Shown: in pieces, positions 7,005 to 47,647 of the stretch
Position numbering within the stretch: position 1 is the stretch's first letter
Layout of the letters: each line of letters starts with the position of its first letter
Origin: Rivularia sp. MS3
Lineage (GTDB): Bacteria; Cyanobacteriota; Cyanobacteriia; Cyanobacteriales; Nostocaceae
NCBI GenBank assembly: GCA_019192545.1
Contig: JAHCMI010000004.1
Span: forward strand, 62,001-126,000
DNA length: 64,000 bases
Direction of reading: 5' to 3'
The notes under the pieces: model-generated
The model's database searches: none
What the model saw: the letters and a program-made list of their open reading frames with translations, nothing else
What the model was told of the DNA's origin: nothing
Translations under genes and position numbers: made by a program

Positions 7005-7709
7005 ATGGTAGATAGAAAATACAAACGTGCAGTTGGTACATTTGCAAGCCGTGGAGATGCGGAGAAAGCACTCTATAAGCTTAGAGATGATGGCTACTCA
7101 ATGGATAAAGTATCTCTGTTGGCGAAGAATGCTGATGGTGATAACATCGCCGGTGCTGATGTAAAGAACGAACGTGGTGAAACAGAGGCTCAAGAAGGTG
7201 CTGGAATTGGTGCTACCACCGGTACAGTTTTAGGTGGTTTGGGCGGTTTACTTCTAGGTTTGGAAGAATTATTAATTCCTGGAATTGGACCTTTCTTAGC
7301 AGCAGGTACTATCGCTACTACTTTGGCTGGTGCTGGATTGGGCGCGGCAACTGGTGGTATCATCGGTGCATTAACCGGCATGGCTATTCCTGAAGAAGAT
7401 GCCAAAATGTACGAAGATAGAATTAATAACGGTTACTATTTGTTGATAGTAGAAGGTTATGAAGATGAAATCGACCGTATCGGTTCTACTTTAAGTGGTT
7501 ATAAAGTTAGTAACTGGAAAGTTTTTGACGCACCTGCACCTGAAGTTGAGACAGAAGTCAAAGAAGTTCCTGTTGCTCAACCAGTTCCTGTTGTTGAAAA
7601 AGAAGTTGATGTTGATGTAGTCAATCGTAAAGAAGTTGTTGACAGAAAAACTGTAATTGACCGCGATATAGTAGAAGTAGTTGATAAAAGAGACGATACT
7701 ATTCGCTAA
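7005..7709 (+). CDS. General-stress-type protein with glycine-zipper hydrophobic core
   Basis: 234 residues. The N-terminus (RAVGTFASRGDAEKALYKL) matches the general stress protein 17M/YflT-like domain that begins many cyanobacterial stress proteins. Residues about 65-125 form a Gly/Ala-rich double hydrophobic segment (GATTGTVLGGLGG, GLGAATGGIIGAL) that could insert in membranes. A second alpha/beta half (YYLLIVEGYEDEIDRI) follows, then a charged Val/Glu/Lys-rich tail. Good RBS (GAGGAG, 8 bases before ATG) and a strong terminator suggest a single-gene transcript. Function is not established. The protein at 33697-34212 has a similar layout. Confidence 0.75.
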   Translation: MVDRKYKRAVGTFASRGDAEKALYKLRDDGYSMDKVSLLAKNADGDNIAGADVKNERGETEAQEGAGIGATTGTVLGGLGGLLLGLEELLIPGIGPFLAAGTIATTLAGAGLGAATGGIIGALTGMAIPEEDAKMYEDRINNGYYLLIVEGYEDEIDRIGSTLSGYKVSNWKVFDAPAPEVETEVKEVPVAQPVPVVEKEVDVDVVNRKEVVDRKTVIDRDIVEVVDKRDDTIR

Positions 7710-20965: not shown

Positions 20966-21032
20966 GTAGGGTGTGTGACGGTTTGAATAAATTTGAACCT
21001 GGTTATTAATGAGAAAATACCGTCACGCACCA
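20966..21032. repeat. Half copy of the GTGACGGT foldback (REP-like) element
   Basis: GTAGGGTGTGTGACGGTTTG at the left and ATACCGTCACGCACC at the right form an inverted pair, equal to one arm of the larger elements at 27.9-32.7 kb. The rest of the spacer to 21126 ends in ATTCCCT heptamers (21090-21120), which stop 6 bases before the next ATG. Confidence 0.8.
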
Positions 21033-21126
21033 ACCGGAAGTATTAATAACCATGTAAGGATAAAAATAAAAGTTATTAAATTTGTCTTCTATTCCCTATT
21101 CCCTATTCCCTATTCCCTAATCTACA

Positions 21127-23847: not shown

Positions 23848-26800
23848 ATGTTCACCCACGTCAAGTCCACCATTAGACACATCAAACCGGAAAATCTCGC
23901 TGGCCGACATTTGATAAAGGTGGTCTATGTCGTGTTAGAGTCCCAGTATCAAAGTGCTTTATCACAAGCGGTACGGACTATAAACGATAATCACCCTAAC
24001 ATTGCCATTGAGATTAGCGGTTATTTAATTGAAGAACTCCGAAGTGAAGAAAATTATCAGGAGTTTAAGAAAGATTTAGCAACTACAAATGTTTTTATTG
24101 CTTCACTTATTTTTATTGAAGAGTTAGCGCAGAAGGTTGTTGCAGCTGTCGAACCAAATCGCGACAATTTTGACGTTGCTGTATGTTTCCCTTCCATGCC
24201 GGAAGTTATGCGTCTGAATAAGATGGGTAGCTTTTCTTTGGCGAATTTGGGACAGTCAAAGAGTGCGATCGCCCAGTTTATGAAGAAGCGTAAGGAAAAA
24301 TCCGGTTCTTCTTTCCAAGATGGAATGTTGAAGCTGCTGCGGACTTTGCCTTCTGTATTAAAGTATTTACCTGTAGAAAAGGCTCAAGATGCTCGCAATT
24401 TCATGTTGAGTTTTCAGTATTGGTTGGGAGGCTCTTCTGAGAATTTAGAAAACTTCCTGTTAATGCTGGCTGATAAATACGTTTTAAAAGATGTTGATAA
24501 AAGTAATTTTGTCTTTGTAAAGGAGTATCAACCGCCAGTCGTTTATCCCGACATGGGAATTTGGCATCCTTTAGCCACAACAATGTTTGAAGATGTCAAA
24601 GAATATCTCAACTGGTATAGCAGCCGTAAGGATATTTCTGATGATTTAAAAGATCCCTTAGCGCCTTGTGTTGGTTTAGTGTTGCAGCGCACGCATTTGG
24701 TAACTGGTGATGATGCACATTATGTCGCTTTGGTACAAGAATTGGAAGCGATGGGAGCTAAGGTAATTCCCGTTTTTGCTGGTGGTTTGGATTTTTCAAA
24801 GCCGGTAGATGCTTATTTTTACGAAACTTCTGCTTTAGCAAAAAATAATAAGGAAGGCACTCCCTTAGTAGATGCTGTAGTATCTTTGACAGGATTTGCG
24901 TTAGTTGGTGGACCCGCCAGACAAGACCACCCAAAGGCGATTGACTCGTTAAAGCGGTTAAATCGTCCGTATATGGTTGCTTTACCTTTGGTATTCCAAA
25001 CTACCGAAGAGTGGATGGATAGCGATTTGGGATTGCACCCGATTCAAGTTGCTTTGCAAATTGCGATTCCGGAATTAGATGGTGCAATTGAGCCGATAAT
25101 TTTATCTGGTAAAGATGGCGCAACTGGAAAGGCGATCGCGCTGCAAGATAGAGTAGAAGCCATAGCGCAAAGAGCAATCAAATGGGCTAGTTTACGACTT
25201 AAGCCCAAGTTAGATAAAAAGATTGCCATTACCGTATTTAGTTTTCCCCCAGATAAAGGTAACGTCGGAACCGCAGCATATTTAGACGTATTCGGTTCCA
25301 TATACGAGGTAATGAAAGCCTTACGAAGCAATGGCTACGATTTACCTGAATTACCAGGAAGTGCAAAAGAGTTGATGGAAGAAGTCATCCACGATGCACA
25401 AGCACAATATGCAAGCCCCGAGCTAAATATTGCTTATCGGATGTCAGTTCCCGAATACGAAGAATTAACACCATATTCCCAACGCTTGGAAGAAAATTGG
25501 GGGGCACCTCCAGGTGAGTTAAATAGCGACGGACAAAATTTATTAGTATACGGAAAACAGTTTGGTAATGTATTTATAGGAGTACAGCCAACCTTCGGAT
25601 ATGAAGGAGATCCGATGCGGTTGTTATTCTCACGCTCGGCAAGCCCCCATCACGGTTTTGCTGCTTACTACACTTACCTAGAAAAAATTTGGGGTGCCGA
25701 TGCAGTACTTCACTTCGGTACTCACGGCTCCTTGGAATTCATGCCAGGAAAACAAATGGGAATGTCTGGTGAATGCTATCCCGATAGTTTAATTGGTACA
25801 ATTCCCAACTTATATTATTACGCTGCCAACAACCCCAGCGAAGCCACAATCGCCAAACGTCGCAGCTACGCCGAAACCATTTCTTATTTAACCCCTCCCG
25901 CAGAAAACGCCGGTTTGTATAAAGGGTTGAAAGAATTAAGCGAATTAATTGGTTCATATCAAACCTTGAAAGATACTGGCAGGGGAGTTCCCATTGTCGA
26001 TACCATCATGGATAAAGCCAGGATGGTGAATCTTGATAAAGATATCGACTTACCGGAAATTAGTTCTAAAGAAATGTCCGCAGAAGAGCGGGATAATATC
26101 GTTGGTAGCGTCTACCGTCGGTTGATGGAGATAGAATCGCGACTATTACCATGTGGATTACACGTAGTTGGAAAACCTCCTACGGCAGAGGAAGCGGTTG
26201 CCACACTTGTTAATATAGCTGGGTTAGATAGAGAAGAAGAAGGAATAATTAGTTTACAGCGGATTATCGGTAATAGTATTAATCGGGACATCGAAGAAAT
26301 TTATCGGAATAGCGATAAAGGTGTTTTAGCCGATGTCGAATTGCTGCAAAATATTACTTTGACAACAAGAGATGCAGTAGCAGCATTAGTTAAAGAGAAA
26401 ACCGACGCAGAAGGAAGAGTATCCCGAGTTTCCAAATTGAATTTCTTCAATATGGGTAAAAAAGAACCTTGGGTAGAAGCTTTACATCAAGCTGGTTATG
26501 CCAATGTTGACAAAGAAGCAATCAAACCGTTATTTGAATACTTAGAATTCTGCTTGCAACAAGTATGTGCCGATAACGAATTAGGTGCATTACTCAAAGG
26601 TTTAGAAGGAGAATACGTTTTACCTGGCCCTGGAGGAGATCCAATTCGTAACCCCGACGTACTCCCCACCGGTAAAAACATCCACGCTTTAGATCCCCAA
26701 GCAATCCCCACCATGGCGGCGGTGAAATCTGCCAAAGTCGTCGTAGATAGATTGTTAGATAGACAAATGCGGGAAAACGGCGGCGAATATCCCGAAACCA

Positions 26801-27858
26801 TCGCCTGTGTATTATGGGGCACCGACAATATCAAAACCTACGGGGAATCACTAGCACAGATAATGTGGATGGTAGGCGTGCGACCGGTTCCAGATGCATT
26901 GGGTAGAGTCAATAAGTTAGAATTAGTACCTTTAGAGGAATTGGGAAGACCGAGAATTGATGTTGTAATTAACTGCTCCGGCGTATTCCGCGACTTGTTT
27001 GTCAACCAAATGAATTTATTAGATAGGGGCGTAAAAATGGCTGCGGAAGCAGATGAACCCTTAGAAATGAACTTTGTTCGCAAACACGCAATCAAGCAAG
27101 CGGAAGACATGGGAATTAACATCCGTCAAGCTGCTACAAGGGTATTTTCAAATGCTAGTGGTTCATATTCTTCTAATATCAACTTAGCAGTAGAAAATAG
27201 TAGCTGGGATAGCGAAGCAGAATTACAGGAAATGTACCTCAAACGTAAATCCTTTGCATTTACAGAAGATAATCCTGGAATGATGGAGAATTCCCGAGAG
27301 ATATTTGAGAGTACATTGAAGACAGCAGAAGTCACCTTTCAAAATTTAGATTCTTCGGAAATTAGTTTAACCGACGTTTCCCATTATTACGATTCCGATC
27401 CCACCAAAGTAGTAGCAGGGTTGCGGAAAGATGGTAAAAAGCCAGTTGCCTACATGGCAGATACCACCACAGCAAACGCACAAGTTAGAACATTATCTGA
27501 AACCGTGCGCTTGGATTCTCGAACTAAATTATTGAATCCTAAATGGTATGAAGGGATGTTGTCTCACGGTTATGAAGGTGTGAGGGAATTATCTAAAAGA
27601 TTGGTAAATACAGTTGGTTGGAGTGCTACCGCTGATGCTGTAGATAACTGGGTTTACGAAGATACGAATGAAACCTTTATGAAAGATAAGGAGATGCAGG
27701 AAAGGTTGCTTAACTTAAATCCGCATTCCTTTAGGAAGATGGTGACGACTTTGTTGGAAGCGAATGGTAGAGGTTATTGGGATACAGATGAAAGTAATCT
27801 CGATAGATTGCGGGAACTGTATCAGCAGGTTGAAGATAAGATTGAAGGGATTGAGTAG
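23848..27858 (+). CDS. bchH: Magnesium chelatase subunit H (ChlH/BchH)
   Basis: 1336 residues, the normal full length. It is the porphyrin-binding, catalytic subunit of the ChlH-ChlI-ChlD chelatase that inserts Mg2+ into protoporphyrin IX with ATP, the first committed step of chlorophyll synthesis. Family landmarks: an N-terminal [12 protein letters not shown]...LVVLES-like start ([14 protein letters not shown]), [55 protein letters not shown], and a C-terminal [17 protein letters not shown]. No frameshift seen. Start supported by TAGGAG 11 bases upstream. Single gene with its own terminator; chlI and chlD are not in the window. Confidence 0.98.
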
Positions 27859-27939: not shown

Positions 27940-28144
27940 TGTAGGGTGCTGTGACGGTTAAAATAATCTATCGGACATAATCGAAAAATTATCATAATAC
28001 CGTCACGCACCATTCGGGTTGATAATGATGGGTGACGGTTAATTTAAAATATTGCGTTATTTTTGATAATAATGGTGCGTGACGGTATGTTCAAATTTGT
28101 TCGTTATATGCAATCAATTGTCGTAACCGTCACAGCACCCTACA
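27940..28144. repeat. REP/BIME-like foldback element 1
   Basis: 205 bp with perfect terminal inverted repeats beginning TGTAGGGTGCTGTGACGGTT. Internal GTGACGGTA-type units alternate in orientation, with two facing pairs (GGTGCTGTGACGG / CCGTCACGCACC and its mirror) around a centre TGATAATGATGGGTGACGG. No coding capacity. It ends one base from the stop codon of the AIPR gene. Confidence 0.92.
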
Positions 28145-28145
28145 T

Positions 28146-29918
28146 TTATTTTGATTCATTTTCAACAAGTTCTTGTTCTAATTTTTGTTGAAGTTGTTTA
28201 ACAAATTCTTGACTAAATATTTTATCGCGATTACCCATATCGTAACCAAGATTATCGCAAAACTCTTCAAGTAAATGTGCTGATTTTTCAAAATATTTTT
28301 TCCATTTAGTTTTACTGCATAGAATTGAATTAATTTTTTTGCAATAACTATTTATTTCTTTATCCTTATTTATGTTTGGAGTCTTATACCCTACTACTAG
28401 ATATCTGAAAATCATTAAAAGATGATATTTGTACTTCTTAAACTTAGAATCTAATTTATTTTTTCCTCTCGAATTAAGAAGATTTTCTAATTTGTAATAT
28501 GCTAGAGAACTAGTATAATAAGCAACTGGTTGATGATTTTCATGAAAAATTTTAGTACCGATATCTTTAAAGAGATTTTGATAAATTTGACCTACTTTAT
28601 GAGGTTGCTCAAGAAACATTGCGGCAAATGTTTTAATTTGGTCTTTAACTGTAATAATCCTACTTTTAGGAACTTCTGCTCTACTATTATATTGTTTTGA
28701 GCGTCTCTCGTAGTATAATCTTCCTTCTTGAGAAGAATCAAATGAATTATAGTAATTTTCTAGTTTCTTTTGAAATTCTGATAGTGCTTCTAATTCTTCT
28801 TTCTTTACTGGAGTCTGAGAATTTGTAGCTAAGATAATATCACTTATAACTTCATCTTCTGCAACAATTATTTTAACTGGAATATGTAAGTCTTCAATAC
28901 CAGATGTATTTCTACAGTCATAAATAACATGACTAGTTTGACATCCATTAACAATTTGATAATCTCTAATCGTAAATTTATTACCGACTGTATCTAATGA
29001 TTTAGCAATGATAGTTGTTCCATTATTTAAGACTGCAAATCTGTCAATATTTCCGGATTCTATTGTATTTTTTATTTTAGTATTTACATCATTATAAGTT
29101 TGAAAAGCCCGAACATTATCATAAAAGATAGACAATCTAATATTGTCAAATTCGTCTATTATCAACTTTTTGTACTCGGGAAAAGGGAGTATGCCAATGT
29201 ATGATTCAGAAATACCTGTGATTTGAGGTAATACAATTCGTCTTTCAAAAATTATATCAGTAGCAATAGTTAATATTGTACTTTGATAAAGTTTGCGAAT
29301 TTCATTAGAGCCTAAAGGATATATATAAACTTGTTCAAAATTTTCTGTTTCTAATAGTTTAGCTTGTTTAGAATCTATACGTTTAACAAGATTTGTATCA
29401 TTATTATGCCATTTACCTGTTGTGACATAGTAAAGCTTGCAAATTGGTCTTCCTCTTGACATTAATCGAGGCAAAGAATAAATATGCTGAGCAATTTTAG
29501 CCTTATGTGAAACTTGTTTATTTCTAGATAAAGTCGGTTCTTCTTCAAAAAAGTCAAAAACTCCTTCAAAAAATTTCAACATATCTCCACTTTCAAAACG
29601 GCTTGAAGTTTTTGATTGAATAAAAATAAATTTTGCTTCTATATATCCGTTCAAAGTACTTAAGTCGTCTACTTCTTCAATAGAGTTAACTATTCTTCCA
29701 TTTACAATTATTGCGATACCATCTAACCCAGTATCATTGGAACTTCCAACAGTAACTTCATCAATCTTAAATGTTTCAGAATGTTCGTGCGAGATAATAC
29801 AATAATTAGAAAATTTTTCAAAATCACAAGCTTCTCCTTCAGATTCCAATTCATATTCTTGGAGAAAACTTTCCATTAAGTTTTTAGTAATTCTGTCCAT
29901 GCTTATATACTTACTCAT
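28146..29918 (-). CDS. AIPR-family (abortive infection phage resistance) protein
   Basis: 590 residues. The central part carries AIPR-family landmarks: FYDNVRAFQ, VLNNGTTIIAKSL, the YQIVNGCQTSHVIYD motif, then VKIIVAEDE...ATNSQTPVKKEEL. The N-terminal half has a GLDGIAI...FIFIQSKTSSRF segment that looks like a nuclease-fold (D...QxK) strand pair, giving a possible PD-(D/E)XK core. AIPR proteins are linked to phage exclusion (abortive infection). There is no modification or antitoxin partner beside it. Bounded by foldback elements 1 and 2. Full-length and apparently intact. Confidence 0.82.
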   Translation of the reverse strand: MSKYISMDRITKNLMESFLQEYELESEGEACDFEKFSNYCIISHEHSETFKIDEVTVGSSNDTGLDGIAIIVNGRIVNSIEEVDDLSTLNGYIEAKFIFIQSKTSSRFESGDMLKFFEGVFDFFEEEPTLSRNKQVSHKAKIAQHIYSLPRLMSRGRPICKLYYVTTGKWHNNDTNLVKRIDSKQAKLLETENFEQVYIYPLGSNEIRKLYQSTILTIATDIIFERRIVLPQITGISESYIGILPFPEYKKLIIDEFDNIRLSIFYDNVRAFQTYNDVNTKIKNTIESGNIDRFAVLNNGTTIIAKSLDTVGNKFTIRDYQIVNGCQTSHVIYDCRNTSGIEDLHIPVKIIVAEDEVISDIILATNSQTPVKKEELEALSEFQKKLENYYNSFDSSQEGRLYYERRSKQYNSRAEVPKSRIITVKDQIKTFAAMFLEQPHKVGQIYQNLFKDIGTKIFHENHQPVAYYTSSLAYYKLENLLNSRGKNKLDSKFKKYKYHLLMIFRYLVVGYKTPNINKDKEINSYCKKINSILCSKTKWKKYFEKSAHLLEEFCDNLGYDMGNRDKIFSQEFVKQLQQKLEQELVENESK

Positions 29919-30095
29919 TTAGAAATTTGAATAAGTATACATAGATTTAAATTACAAGTCATGTATAAATATTACATATATTTTTGTTTATGTAATATAC
30001 AAATCATGCAATAATTTTCGTAGTTTTTAGCGAAAATTAAAATGGCGATCGCCGCAGTCATTCGCCTGAATACATTCACAAGCAAAATAATCTTT
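29919..30095. other. Promoter region of the AIPR gene
   Basis: AT-rich, about 177 bases, with a HIP1 site (about 30047). No ORF. Confidence 0.45.
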
Positions 30096-30342
30096 TGTAG
30101 GGTGCTGTGACGGTTCAAATAACCTATCGGTCAAAACCAATAATTATCATAATACCGTCACGCACCACCAAATGGTTGATAATTTTGCGTGATGGTGTAT
30201 TTCAAATATTCGTTGTAAATGAAAAAATGGTGCGTGACGGTATGTTCAAATTATTCCGTTACCTTTGATAAATTTTCGTAACCGTCACAGCAACGGCAAT
30301 ATTGAGGGAGGAGAATCCACACCTCAATTTGCCTCCCCTACA
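30096..30342. repeat. REP/BIME-like foldback element 2 (variant right end)
   Basis: Left arm TGTAGGGTGCTGTGACGGTT as in element 1. The right side keeps GTAACCGTCACAGCA, then switches to CAACGGCAATATTGAGG and ends TTGCCTCCCCTACA. This alternate outer arm is shared with the left end of element 5 and with 47551-47614. From 30343 to 30475 there is AT-rich sequence with no gene. Confidence 0.88.
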
Positions 30343-30475
30343 AAGAAATAATTAAAGCAAAATTCAAAAAATGTATCGACAATATTTTGTAGTCAAATAA
30401 AAATGCAATTAATACGGATATTACATCGGAGATAGCAGTATAAATAATATCAATGCGTTTTTCAGATGGCTAAAT

Positions 30476-30994
30476 ATGGAAACATTTGTTCTGCTCCATA
30501 ACGAACTGGATAATGATATTAGAGAATGCTTAGATGAAACTAAAAACGAAATATCTAAGGGTAATCTAATAAATTGGGATTGGAGTTGTGCAACTACGAA
30601 AGGGATTAAAGTAGGAGATAAAATTTTTTTTCAAAGAGCAGGTAAACCTGGTGGTTATTTTGCTTACGGTGTTGCTGTTGCTGCTGATGAAAAAGATCAG
30701 TTACGAAAAATTAAAGATGTAAGATATCAAGATTTTAGCGAAACTTATCGAAAAGATTGTTATCGGAATGGTTTTGTTATTTGGGTAGAGATACATTCCG
30801 TTGTTGATTACGACTACCCACTAGAGAAAAAGAAGCTCAAAGCATTACCTGAATTTACAGACGTTTTTCTTGATTTTCGCCGCTCCGGTTGCAAATTACA
30901 ACCGGATGTTGCAGAAGCTTTATTTAGAGAATGGGAAAAACATTCAATGGAACTTGCAACAAAAGGTTTAGGTGAAAGGCTTATTGATTTCTAA
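30476..30994 (+). CDS. EVE/PUA-fold domain protein
   Basis: 172 residues. WDWSCATTKGIKVGDKIFFQRAG followed by GYFAYGVAVAADE fits an EVE (PUA-like) domain, a family that reads modified bases and occurs in modification-dependent restriction and toxin systems. The C-terminal part (VEIHSVVDYDYPLEKKKLKA...FRRSGCKLQPDVAEALFREW) completes the domain, with no nuclease attached. It sits between foldback elements 2 and 3, opposite the AIPR gene. A role in sensing modified DNA is inference from the family only. Alternative: a stand-alone ASCH/EVE protein of unrelated function. Confidence 0.68.
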   Translation: METFVLLHNELDNDIRECLDETKNEISKGNLINWDWSCATTKGIKVGDKIFFQRAGKPGGYFAYGVAVAADEKDQLRKIKDVRYQDFSETYRKDCYRNGFVIWVEIHSVVDYDYPLEKKKLKALPEFTDVFLDFRRSGCKLQPDVAEALFREWEKHSMELATKGLGERLIDF

Positions 30995-31022
30995 TGTGAA
31001 CAAGGGAATGAACTGAAAAAAT

Positions 31023-31121
31023 TTGGGAGAATACGAAGAAGCTATATATAGTTTTGAAATTGCACTAGAATTAGATCCTCAATACGGCAAAGCTAAAAAT
31101 GGCATGAAAATGTGTAAATAA
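31023..31121 (+). pseudogene. TPR-repeat gene remnant
   Basis: The frame reads LGEYEEAIYSFEIALELDP then QYGKAKNGMKMCK and a TAA. This is the end of a tetratricopeptide repeat, but upstream in the same frame is a TGA and no start. It lies 28 bases after the EVE gene, so it is a broken fragment of a former TPR protein or the lost C-terminus of a longer neighbour. Confidence 0.6.
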
Positions 31122-31168
31122 TCGCTAACAAGAAAATGGCGATCGCACTCACTAAAAAAATAATTTAT

Positions 31169-31369
31169 TGTAGGGTGCTGTGACGGTTCAAATAACCTAT
31201 CGAACAAAACCAATAATTATCATCATACCGTCACGCACCAATTAATTGATAATAACGAGTGATGGTAAATTTAAATATTGCGTTGTTTATGATAATAATG
31301 GTGCGTGACGGTATATTCAAATCCTTTCGTTACCTTAATAAATGTTTGTAACCGTCACAGCACCCTACA
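31169..31369. repeat. REP/BIME-like foldback element 3 (left flank of the RAYT)
   Basis: 201 bp. Perfect outer arms TGTAGGGTGCTGTGACGGTT and the inverse at the right end (ACCGTCACAGCACCCTACA). Internal ACCGTCACGCACC and GGTGCGTGACGGTA as in element 1. It starts about 130 bases before the AT-rich leader of the transposase gene. A HIP1 site lies just before it. Confidence 0.92.
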
Positions 31370-31502
31370 AAGCATCAAAGATAATTTGTAATTGTACAGT
31401 CATTTATTTATAAAAACGGGCTAATTTATTAACCTTTATTTCATATACCACCATAATTAATGGGCTATCTTTGATAAATAATAATAAAACTTTTTATCAA
31501 AA

Positions 31503-32063
31503 ATGCCTGAATATCGAAGATTAAAAATTGAGGGTGGTACTTACTTTTTTACATTAGTTACCTACAATCGTCATCCTTGGTTATGTAGTGAAATTGCTCG
31601 TTCTACTTTAAGAAAAGCAATTGAGTGGGTACGTATTAAATATCCTTTTAAAATTGATGCTTTTGTTCTTTTAGCCGAACATTTACACTGTATTTGGACT
31701 TTACCGGATGGTGATGATAATTATTCGATTCGTTGGAAATGGATAAAGACTTATGTCACAAAACGCTGTGAGGATAAACTTGCTTTAAAATACCCAATGA
31801 GTGAGTCAGGAAAAAAGCGTCAAGAAGGTAATTTATGGCAAAGAAGATTTTGGGAACATTTAATTCGCGATGAAAAGGATTTTCAAGCACATTGCGATTA
31901 TATTCATTATAATCCTGTGAAACATAGTTTATGTAGTTCTCCCCAGGATTGGCAATTTTCAAGTTTTCATCGATTTGTGAAAAACGGAATTTATTCTCAA
32001 GATTGGGGAGTAAATGAAGTTCCTAGAATATCAAAATTGATTTCAGATGAAGAGTTTGAGTAA
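31503..32063 (+). CDS. REP-associated tyrosine transposase (RAYT, TnpA_REP / Y1 family)
   Basis: 186 residues. Seen: the HUH motif HLH (60-62) within LAEHLHCIWTLP, and the segment CDYIHYNPVKHSL (131-143) that carries the catalytic tyrosine (Tyr133 or Tyr136), followed by PQDWQFSSFHRFV, all typical of RAYT proteins. These are single-copy relatives of IS200/IS605 transposases that nick single-stranded REP hairpins. The gene is flanked at 133 bases upstream and 4 bases downstream by REP-like elements 3 and 4, a typical REPtron layout. It appears intact. Confidence 0.92.
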   Translation: MPEYRRLKIEGGTYFFTLVTYNRHPWLCSEIARSTLRKAIEWVRIKYPFKIDAFVLLAEHLHCIWTLPDGDDNYSIRWKWIKTYVTKRCEDKLALKYPMSESGKKRQEGNLWQRRFWEHLIRDEKDFQAHCDYIHYNPVKHSLCSSPQDWQFSSFHRFVKNGIYSQDWGVNEVPRISKLISDEEFE

Positions 32064-32067
32064 ATTT

Positions 32068-32272
32068 TGTAGGGTTCTGTGACGGCTAAAATAACCTATC
32101 AATGATAACCTAATAATTATCATAATGCCGTCACGCACCAAATCGTTGATAATTATGCGTAACGGTAAATTTTTTCATATTGCATTGCATATGATAACAA
32201 TGGTGCGTGACGGTATGTTCAAAGTCTTTCGTTAAACATGATAAATTGTCGTAACCGTCACAGCACCCTACA
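32068..32272. repeat. REP/BIME-like foldback element 4 (right flank of the RAYT)
   Basis: 205 bp starting 4 bases after the RAYT stop codon. Same plan as element 1 with more differences at the left arm (GGGTTCTGTGACGGCT). Right arm CCGTCACAGCACCCTACA. Confidence 0.92.
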
Positions 32273-32436
32273 ATATGCAACTCTATTACAAAATAATCCT
32301 CTCAGAAAATTATAAAAGGATGTTTAGTTAGTTTGATTATATAACATACTCATTCATTATCTAAATCCTGCACGTAATTTAAGATTAGGTAAAAATAATA
32401 TTCCTATGACATTACTTCTAAAGATACATAATTTAC

Positions 32437-32687
32437 TGTAGGGGAGGCAAAATTCGGTGTAGATTAACTTCGGGCATTATTGCCGTTGCTGTGACGGTTA
32501 AAACAATTTATCGCACATAATCGAATAATTATCATAATACCGTCACGCACCATTGGGGTTGATAATAATGCGTGACGATATATTTATTGATATTGCGTTG
32601 TGTACGATCAAAAAATGGTGCGTGACGGTATGTTCAAAGTATTTCGTTACATATGATAAATTATAGTAACCGTCACAGCACCCTACA
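32437..32687. repeat. REP/BIME-like foldback element 5 (variant left end)
   Basis: Left end TGTAGGGGAGGCAAAATTCG, then ATTGCCGTTGCTGTGACGGTT, is the inverse of the variant right end of element 2. The rest matches element 1 and ends ACCGTCACAGCACCCTACA. Sequence 32273-32436 between elements 4 and 5 and 32688-32801 after it is AT-rich with no gene. Confidence 0.9.
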
Positions 32688-32801: not shown

Positions 32802-33581
32802 CTAAACAAATTTCGTCAACTGCATCCGATAGCGCTCTTTTTTAGTAACTGCTATTTCCCCAACTTCTAAACGCCCTTTTCCTCGAATCGCTATCAAGTC
32901 TCCTGTTTTGACTTGATGGGAAGCTTGTTTAATTTCTTTCCAATTAACTCGCACGTCGCCAGCATTGATAAAATCAACCATTTTACTGCGAGACATGCCG
33001 AAACCGGCAGAAGCGATCGCGTCTAACCTCAAAGAAGCTTCTACTGTTGTCAATTCTTTCTTTTTCGGTTCTCTTATCTTTAATTCGCTAAAATCTATCC
33101 TTTGAGTCTTGACAGGAACCGAACGTACTTGAGTCAAACTTGTTTCTAAAAAATCAGCCAATTCTGGAACAACAATTACCTGCGCTCCACGCTCCCCAAG
33201 TACAATAATATCGCCGGTTTTCTCTCTTACAATTCCCGTTCCTAACATCGCACCTAAAAAATCGCGATGTGTAGCGGTATCAAATAAAAAATTACCGGCT
33301 ATATTCAAAGCAACAAGCTCAACTTGCGACTCATCTAAAGGAAGTTCGCTGCGAGCAATAGCAATTCTTTTTCTTTCGGCTTGCGGATATCCACCCCAGG
33401 CTAATAACTCTACTTCAGTTAACCGAGCAAAACCCTGCTCAATTTCTGCTAATTCCGGGGGTGAAAGAAAATCGGTAAAAACAACTTCCCAAGTTCTGAT
33501 TGCTTGCTCGGCACAATCAATTACCCGAGCTACAGTATCTCTATTTTCAACGTTCTTTAAAAGTTCTTCTCTTGGCAACAT
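32802..33581 (-). CDS. Photosystem II S4 domain protein
   Basis: 259 residues, YlmH-like RNA-binding protein found in cyanobacteria and plastids. The N-terminal part (VARVIDCAEQAIRTWEVVFTDFL, ELLAWGGYPQAERKRIAIA, DFLGAMLGTGIVREKTGDI) precedes a C-terminal S4 domain (about 183-240: LRLDAIASAGFGMSRSKMVDFINAGDVRVNW). Family members are annotated 'photosystem II S4 domain protein'; their exact RNA target is not settled. Complete; preceded by a GTTAGGA STRR (33593-33625). Confidence 0.92.
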   Translation of the reverse strand: MLPREELLKNVENRDTVARVIDCAEQAIRTWEVVFTDFLSPPELAEIEQGFARLTEVELLAWGGYPQAERKRIAIARSELPLDESQVELVALNIAGNFLFDTATHRDFLGAMLGTGIVREKTGDIIVLGERGAQVIVVPELADFLETSLTQVRSVPVKTQRIDFSELKIREPKKKELTTVEASLRLDAIASAGFGMSRSKMVDFINAGDVRVNWKEIKQASHQVKTGDLIAIRGKGRLEVGEIAVTKKERYRMQLTKFV

Positions 33582-47433: not shown

Positions 47434-47647
47434 GAACTTACGCAAGTGTCACACAACTCTGGTGGTGCGTGACACTAAAACCCTCATTATGACGTTAAAA
47501 GTTAAATTAAGTGTCACAGGGTTCCCATTAAAAATTTTTAATGGGTTCCCGTCACAGCAACGGCACGGCAATAAAGGGGGATATTATCTACACCGCCTGA
47601 CGGGCTCCCCTACAGCATAAATAAATGTGCCAGTTACGTAAGTCCTA
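47434..47647. mobile_element. Composite foldback element between paralogous lipoprotein genes
   Basis: Outer ends ACTTACGCAAGTGTCAC and GTGCCAGTTACGTAAGT are inverted and resemble the tips of the MITE at 60326-60421. Inside are GGTGGTGCGTGACACT / AGTGTCAC, a perfect 22-bp palindrome at 47524-47545 (CCCATTAAAAA / TTTTTAATGGG), and the segment CGTCACAGCAACGGCA...CTCCCCTACA (47551-47614), which matches the variant arm of REP-like elements 2 and 5. It is apparently a patchwork of two element families. Confidence 0.7.

Follow-up and report, generated by a model that had tools for sequence, protein, structure and literature searches.

A probable REPtron of long-loop, GTAG-tagged hairpins and a tyrosine transposase beside chlH in Rivularia sp. 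MS3

A 64,000-nt stretch of the Rivularia sp. MS3 genome (G000:C98:62001-126000; hereafter the window) carries what is very probably a REPtron, judging by its sequence: one REP-associated tyrosine transposase (RAYT, or TnpAREP) and its cognate family of GTAG-tagged repetitive extragenic palindromes (REPs). The system lies between a gene at 23848-27858, which we take from its sequence to be chlH, and a photosystem II S4-domain gene. Systems of a domesticated single-strand transposase and hairpin repeats are of a known kind; unusual here are the large open loop of the repeats and their composites, which bracket strain-specific accessory genes. The REPtron itself is known, and the long-loop REP is a new variation on it. 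A first-pass annotation of the window had claimed five elements around an HUH transposase at 27940-32687. Five composites were located there, and its REP/RAYT reading is well supported by the NF047646 and 4ER8 matches of the protein, its GTAG-contact residues, the GTAG feet of the repeats and a separate REP family at each RAYT locus. The MS3 genome (G000; 9.19 Mb, 174 contigs) was compared within a set of 100 genomes, comprising eight genus members (G000-G007) and 92 genomes from outside the genus.

The 186-amino-acid transposase scored 186.7 bits against NF047646 (cut-off 80), while its Pfam Y1_Tnp score stayed below the cut-off (19.8 vs 23 bits). A search of PDB sequences returned 4ER8, the E. 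coli TnpAREP, as the sole match at E ≤ 0.01 (E 5.8e-42). The HLH motif predicted at residues 60-62 was confirmed, with H60, H62 and Y133 present in 106/106 aligned rows, the window's own among them. Y133 aligned with Y115 of 4ER8, presumably the catalytic tyrosine of that enzyme, and is most likely the catalytic tyrosine here; Y136, named alongside it in the first-pass annotation, does not belong to the conserved set. In E. coli, GTAG is contacted by W94, Q95, E100, H101 and R104 according to the accessible part of PMC6006769. All five are identical in our protein (W112, Q113, E118, H119 and R122 in the alignment to 4ER8). The first four were conserved in 98-100% of the 106 rows and R122 in not above 90%. 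Against the subclasses tabulated in that part of PMC6006769, the Y motif YIHYNP fits table row 2.2, whereas WQ and EHLH do not.

The repeat unit is a single REP of ~72 nt overall, consisting of a GTAG foot, a 13-bp stem with a bulged T and a large open loop. It reads TGTAG, GGTGC, T, GTGACGGT, loop and ACCGTCACGCACCA in order, so that GGTGC-(bulged T)-GTGACGGT pairs with ACCGTCAC-GCACC around ~39 nt. The arm 8-mer GTGACGGT/ACCGTCAC was found 22 times in the window, where ~2 occurrences are expected from length alone. Among 66 units listed from the window and 20 fetched loci, collected with mismatches allowed, 59 have GTAG at the foot. As in other GTAG REPs, the tetranucleotide immediately adjoins the base of a stem-loop, and the unit is multicopy and lies near a RAYT.

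Alignment shows that each composite sets one A-type unit head-to-head with one of B type, and that a truncated copy of the B type lies in the middle. In all five, two units of 71-73 nt lie with their feet outwards and 58-63 nt between them. The left units (A type) carry AATTATCATAAT or a near variant ahead of the closing arm, and the right units (B type) TTTGAACAT or a near variant. The middle piece, which lacks the foot-side arm, aligned to the right-hand unit in 5/5 elements, with scores reached by 0, 1, 4, 2 and 0 of 500 shuffles for elements 1-5; its alignment to the left-hand unit was weaker (5, 12, 36, 127 and 1 of 500). The central partial third unit described previously is thereby borne out. 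The '~205 bp multi-arm structure' described with it exists, but is better read as a head-to-head dimer of long-loop REPs of the BIME/REPIN type. Inverted REPs with feet outwards and one large hairpin possible, as in that type, are seen in the five composites. The pair is not, however, the main dispersed form: the 66 units yield 5 composites plus another 4 head-to-head pairs (spacers of 12-149 nt), and single and clustered units outnumber composites in the listed genome-wide set. The inverted ends TGTAGGG...CCCTACA ascribed to every element hold for elements 1, 3 and 4 but not for the right end of element 2 or the left end of element 5. There, as in a few units elsewhere, an extra hairpin lies between foot and stem; in both elements it is ~43 nt long and also starts TGTAGGGG.

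A second short hairpin module, starting TGTAGGGGAGGC or a close variant, was seen between foot and stem at seven places (32437-32485, 30290-30342 and near 47551 on the minus strand in the window; L017, L023, L092 and L144 elsewhere). Its loop often contains GTGTAGATT, and its stem varies on both sides (TGAGG/CCTCA, TGCGG/CCGCA, AGCAG/CTGCT). Possibly the module is a REP type in its own right that has become joined to the long-loop unit.

Folded as single-stranded DNA, element 3 gave a z-score of -7.86, with 0/200 shuffles as good, and six composite units gave -3.3 to -5.5. A lone unit folded without its foot (20973-21034) reached only -2.0 (8/200 shuffles as good). For covariation, sites were collected from the window and 72 fetched loci by the 5' foot alone (GTAGGGTGCTGTGAC, ≤1 mismatch), which yielded 138 sites, 136 of them closed by a GTCACGCACC-like arm. 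Since the closing side was located by its outer 3' arm, the test is confined to the inner pairs; the sequences are related, and the figures are counts of sites, not of events. Inner pairs 1-3 were paired in 132, 134 and 130 of the 136 sites, compared with 127.3, 105.8 and 117.7 if the two sides were independent. Two-sided exchanges within them ran from G-C to A-T (5), G-C to C-G (13) and T-A to C-G (15). A two-sided exchange from G-C to C-G was also found at an orthologous site, with GACGGT/ACCGTC in the window's unit at 20966-21032 and GACGCT/AGCGTC in G006, in surroundings 86% identical. The two-sided exchanges and inner-pair covariation therefore indicate that the stem has been kept as a pairing structure. 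The large loop is equally real, because pairing stops sharply and the position after the three inner pairs does not pair (21/136 vs 22.6 expected). Loop length was 39 nt in 80 sites. When 15 A-type and 58 B-type units from an alignment of 126 were given to RNAalifold, it paired the stem only and gave no structure inside the loop, and in single-unit folds loop pairs were weak and inconsistent.

The system resembles the E. coli REPtron (TnpAREP, 4ER8) in its HUH-Y1 transposase, its GTAG foot, its stem with an unpaired base, the presence of REPs next to the gene as well as scattered through the genome, and head-to-head pairing (BIME/REPIN). It differs in its ~39-nt loop, where that of E. coli is short, in the truncated third unit within the pair and in composites that bracket accessory genes. 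The accessible text of PMC3733652 describes GTAG-tagged REPs (GTAG-12, GTAG-15 and GTAG-16) in filamentous cyanobacteria, which share both the tag and a cyanobacterial host with ours. GTAG-15 loops of 9-15 bp are termed large there, and its Table 1 gives GTAG-family loops of 2-20 bp, a reported range rather than a family rule, together with one Bradyrhizobium loop type whose inner self-complementary region measures up to 27 bp. The present units, with 36-41 nt unpaired in 129/136 sites, fall outside the 2-20 bp range and are set apart from the families in that text by loop length. Marinomonas REPMa, as covered in the accessible part of PMC8266576, belong to Group 2 and have irregular stems as well as 'large loops', and in both respects are similar to ours; the whole REPs, however, are 42 and 38 nt long, against ~72 nt for the unit here. 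The recognition work in that part concerns short-loop REPs and REPs of ≤42 nt. In the literature searched, beyond whose reach most subscription papers lay, there was no description of 30-40-nt REP loops.

Three RAYT loci of the MS3 genome exceeded the cut-off, on contigs C98 (the window), C1 and C109. The C1 RAYT is flanked by GTAGGTTGGGTTAGACGCA-type units with loops of 32-34 nt, whereas the C109 RAYT, which is in two pieces, has GTAGGGTGCGTTGTCGC-type REPs with short loops around it; no GTGACGG units stand beside either in the stretches seen. Judged by these flanking repeats, each RAYT locus of MS3 has its own GTAG REP family. Beyond the genus, the closest relative (G037, 69% identity), in the sister clade, has GTAGGGTGCGTCACAGC units with loops of 34-35 nt on the flanks of its RAYT; the feet of these units number 28 in G037, 12 in G065, 2-4 in five other genomes and 0 in G000-G007. 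In G006, a RAYT match is likewise in two pieces, and several paired GTAG REPs with short loops come after it (L105, ~7100-7600).

Long loops recur among RAYT loci more widely. At 112 loci, GTAG-foot hairpins had loops of 3-12 nt (113), 30-40 nt (75), 13-29 nt (14) and 41-62 nt (32), compared with means of 3.8, 5.7, 5.5 and 7.3 for 12 other tetranucleotide feet over the same ranges in this order. This histogram still contains five duplicate loci and four loci relabelled for the tree, and some of the longer-loop hairpins are pairs of short REPs. The tree was built from 106 of the 112 loci, leaving out L033 (a short hit) and the five duplicates. L176, L188, L193 and L224, first labelled long, were relabelled short, as each 'long' hairpin there consists of two shorter REPs; L038 was set long by hand, and 42 of the 106 rows had no REP by the rule applied (net stem 9 bp; shorter stems missed). 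All 15 long-loop rows were assigned to cyanobacteria, either by title or by kinship. The long-loop label required at least three changes, the same with starred branches only, whereas shuffled labels required 14.3 on average and 0/500 were as low. As three changes could be one gain and two losses, a repeated origin of long-loop REPs is likely, not proven. Open-loop substrates of 30-40 nt at separate places on the RAYT tree make the loop's part in binding and nicking directly testable.

Feet of the window's family were counted in whole genomes on both strands (18-nt foot, ≤1 mismatch), giving 93 in G000, 66 in G005, 54 in G006, 24 in G003, 11 in G004, 2 each in G001 and G007, and 1 in G002; the reversed foot pattern, used as a control, had 0 matches. 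These counts take in a sister arm type ending GACGCT, the only type present in G001 and G002. Outside the genus, one stray foot was found in each of 2/92 genomes and otherwise none. A RAYT of this clade (≥89% identity) is present in 3/100 genomes only, G000, G005 and G004. Some units stand alone, others in tandem clusters or head-to-head pairs. Full A-middle-B composites were found at this locus only, with at least five in G000, three in G004 and three in G005; the survey scored at most 8 candidates per genome (another scan of G000 scored 40 of 313), and these counts are lower bounds. A single composite remnant in G006, beside the S4 gene in the chlH-S4 interval, suggests that G006 lost its RAYT there. 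In the three G004 composites (L067, 12414-14662), GTACTG replaces GTGACGG in both left and right arms, and this common altered arm points to exchange between arms.

Unit abundance and RAYT presence agree only in part. The first-pass annotation had treated the RAYT as the probable mobiliser of the elements, a view that equal abundance of the elements in relatives lacking any RAYT of this clade would contradict; it comes through this check only in part. The near-complete absence of the unit outside the genus accords with its view, but several results weigh against it. G006 and G003 (the latter an assembly 84% complete) hold many units without an intact RAYT of this clade, and G004 has only its 11 feet although the RAYT is present. 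For at least six unit sites the flanks match between G000, G005 and G006 or between two of these genomes, so many copies are old. Of the sites examined in ~120 kb of contig C98 aligned to G006, none gave a clean empty site, and recent or current mobility of the units is unproven. In this aligned stretch one unit is common to both genomes and two others lie opposite unrelated spacer DNA. A G006 unit cluster (L141) lies opposite ~2.1 kb of other DNA in G000. At L013 750-1900 (G000:C134), a tandem array with a period of ~190 nt repeats units together with ~120 nt of flanking DNA; local duplication therefore copies neighbouring DNA along with the unit.

These observations could be accommodated if the repeats were passive, multiplying only through slippage during replication, unequal crossing-over and gene conversion, beside a RAYT retained for some other role. 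Such a process would fit the tandem clusters with their own spacers (C34, C97 and C134), the sites common to several species, the survival of units where the RAYT has gone and the altered arm common to the G004 composites. It accounts poorly, however, for the spread over many contigs with the same GTAG end, for the separate REP family of each RAYT and for the retained stem pairing. We consider it improbable. Less probable again is a reading of the units as regulatory hairpins of RNA or DNA, such as terminators or mRNA ends, that dispersed in the distant past and persist today for their part in gene regulation. Strong intergenic hairpins at this locus and the conservation of some sites between species would suit this role, but the units are GTAG-tagged and RAYT-linked, and a ~39-nt loop is unlike that of terminators. 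No Rfam match at gathering score was obtained within the window, which also speaks against this role, and a known RNA family was rejected. Under the favoured REPtron reading, and by analogy with the family, the RAYT would bind the GTAG foot and bulged stem in single-stranded DNA, at a replication fork or an extruded cruciform. Nicking and rejoining beside the foot, where the cleavage dinucleotide in E. coli is CT, would then allow the repeats to spread or rearrange.

The units at the chlH-S4 locus are intergenic on the window's gene map. From chlH to the S4 gene the order is composite 1, an AbiU-like gene, composite 2, a 172-amino-acid open reading frame, composite 3, the RAYT, and composites 4 and 5 (Table 1). 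The AbiU-like gene, which is of an anti-phage type (Pfam AIPR, 164.7 bits; PADLOC AbiU, 426 bits), has a GC content of 28%, compared with 37% for the window, and no match at E ≤ 1e-20 in 7/7 congeners. The 172-amino-acid frame had no Pfam, NCBIfam or PADLOC match; at E ≤ 1e-5 it was matched in 1/59 other genomes (weakly, 29% identity), with 58/59 lacking it. The RAYT lies 3' of chlH in G000, G004 and G005 alike. In G005, chlH is followed by a composite, the RAYT, a second composite, small genes (one HicB-like), a third composite and Uma2. In G004 it is followed by a composite, a PspA-like gene, a second composite, the RAYT, a third composite, HicA/HicB and a gene resembling the G005 Uma2; the PspA-like gene has no match at E ≤ 1e-10 in the other seven genus members. 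The lone composite between chlH and RAYT in G005 matches the flank of composite 1 on its chlH side and that of composite 3 on its RAYT side. The AbiU-like gene, the 172-amino-acid frame and two more composites thus occupy the place of one G005 composite. In best alignments, all 11 composites of the three genomes run in one direction relative to chlH and the RAYT.

Direct repeats of ~205 bp suffice for homologous gain and loss of DNA. Comparison of the strains suggests that the one-direction composites at chlH could act as such repeats, through which neighbouring genes would be gained or lost: the AbiU-like gene and the 172-amino-acid frame here, the PspA-like gene in G004. The route might be homologous recombination or involve help from the RAYT, and a role of the composites in cassette turnover is speculative. 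A broader proposal, which we hold only tentatively and think more doubtful than not, is that long-loop REPs are a RAYT substrate class of their own, one that evolved repeatedly, and that Calothrix-type composites with a resident RAYT make up a cassette-exchange site at chlH, swapping defence and accessory genes. If composites do drive defence-gene turnover, this would tie a domesticated transposase to the exchange of accessory genes, of which there was no report in the literature searched, within the same reach as above.

Integron attC cassettes offer a parallel, in that single-strand-folding sites in one direction part the cassettes, much as the folded, one-direction composites lie between strain-variable genes here. 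That the 11 full composites are themselves integrase-driven sites of this kind is nevertheless very unlikely: the sites differ, the cassette genes lie in both orientations, the repeated unit is a REP with a GTAG foot, has a RAYT next to it in place of an integrase and occurs in dozens of single or clustered copies elsewhere in the genome, and TIGR02249 gave 11 matches in the genome with 0 over the cut-off and none on contig C98, comparably weak matches being found in 14/14 control genomes. The integron reading was rejected, no IntI integrase having been found at the TIGR02249 cut-off.

Table 1. Features of the chlH-S4 interval and its surroundings (window coordinates).
Feature	Position	Strand	Remarks
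Single unit, same family as composites	20966..21032	+	
Composite element 1	27940..28144	+	Between chlH and AbiU-like gene
Element 1, unit A	27940-28012	+	
Element 1, truncated unit	28013-28072		
Element 1, unit B	28073-28144	-	
AbiU-like / AIPR-domain gene	28146..29918	-	Strain-specific cassette gene; Pfam AIPR, PADLOC AbiU
Composite element 2	30096..30342	+	Right end lengthened by extra hairpin, terminating CCCCTACA
172-amino-acid open reading frame, family unknown	30476..30994	+	Strain-specific cassette gene
Composite element 3	31169..31369	+	5' of RAYT
RAYT (TnpAREP)	31503..32063	+	NF047646, 4ER8 match
Composite element 4	32068..32272	+	Immediately 3' of RAYT stop codon
Composite element 5	32437..32687	+	Left end lengthened by extra hairpin, starting TGTAGGGG
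Photosystem II S4-domain gene	32802-33581		TIGR03069

The stretch downstream of chlH was seen to vary by strain (L066 in G005, L067 in G004 and L075 in G006). Genes found there include HicA/HicB and ParD-like toxin-antitoxin types as well as Uma2, DndB-like, AbiU-like and PspA-like genes.

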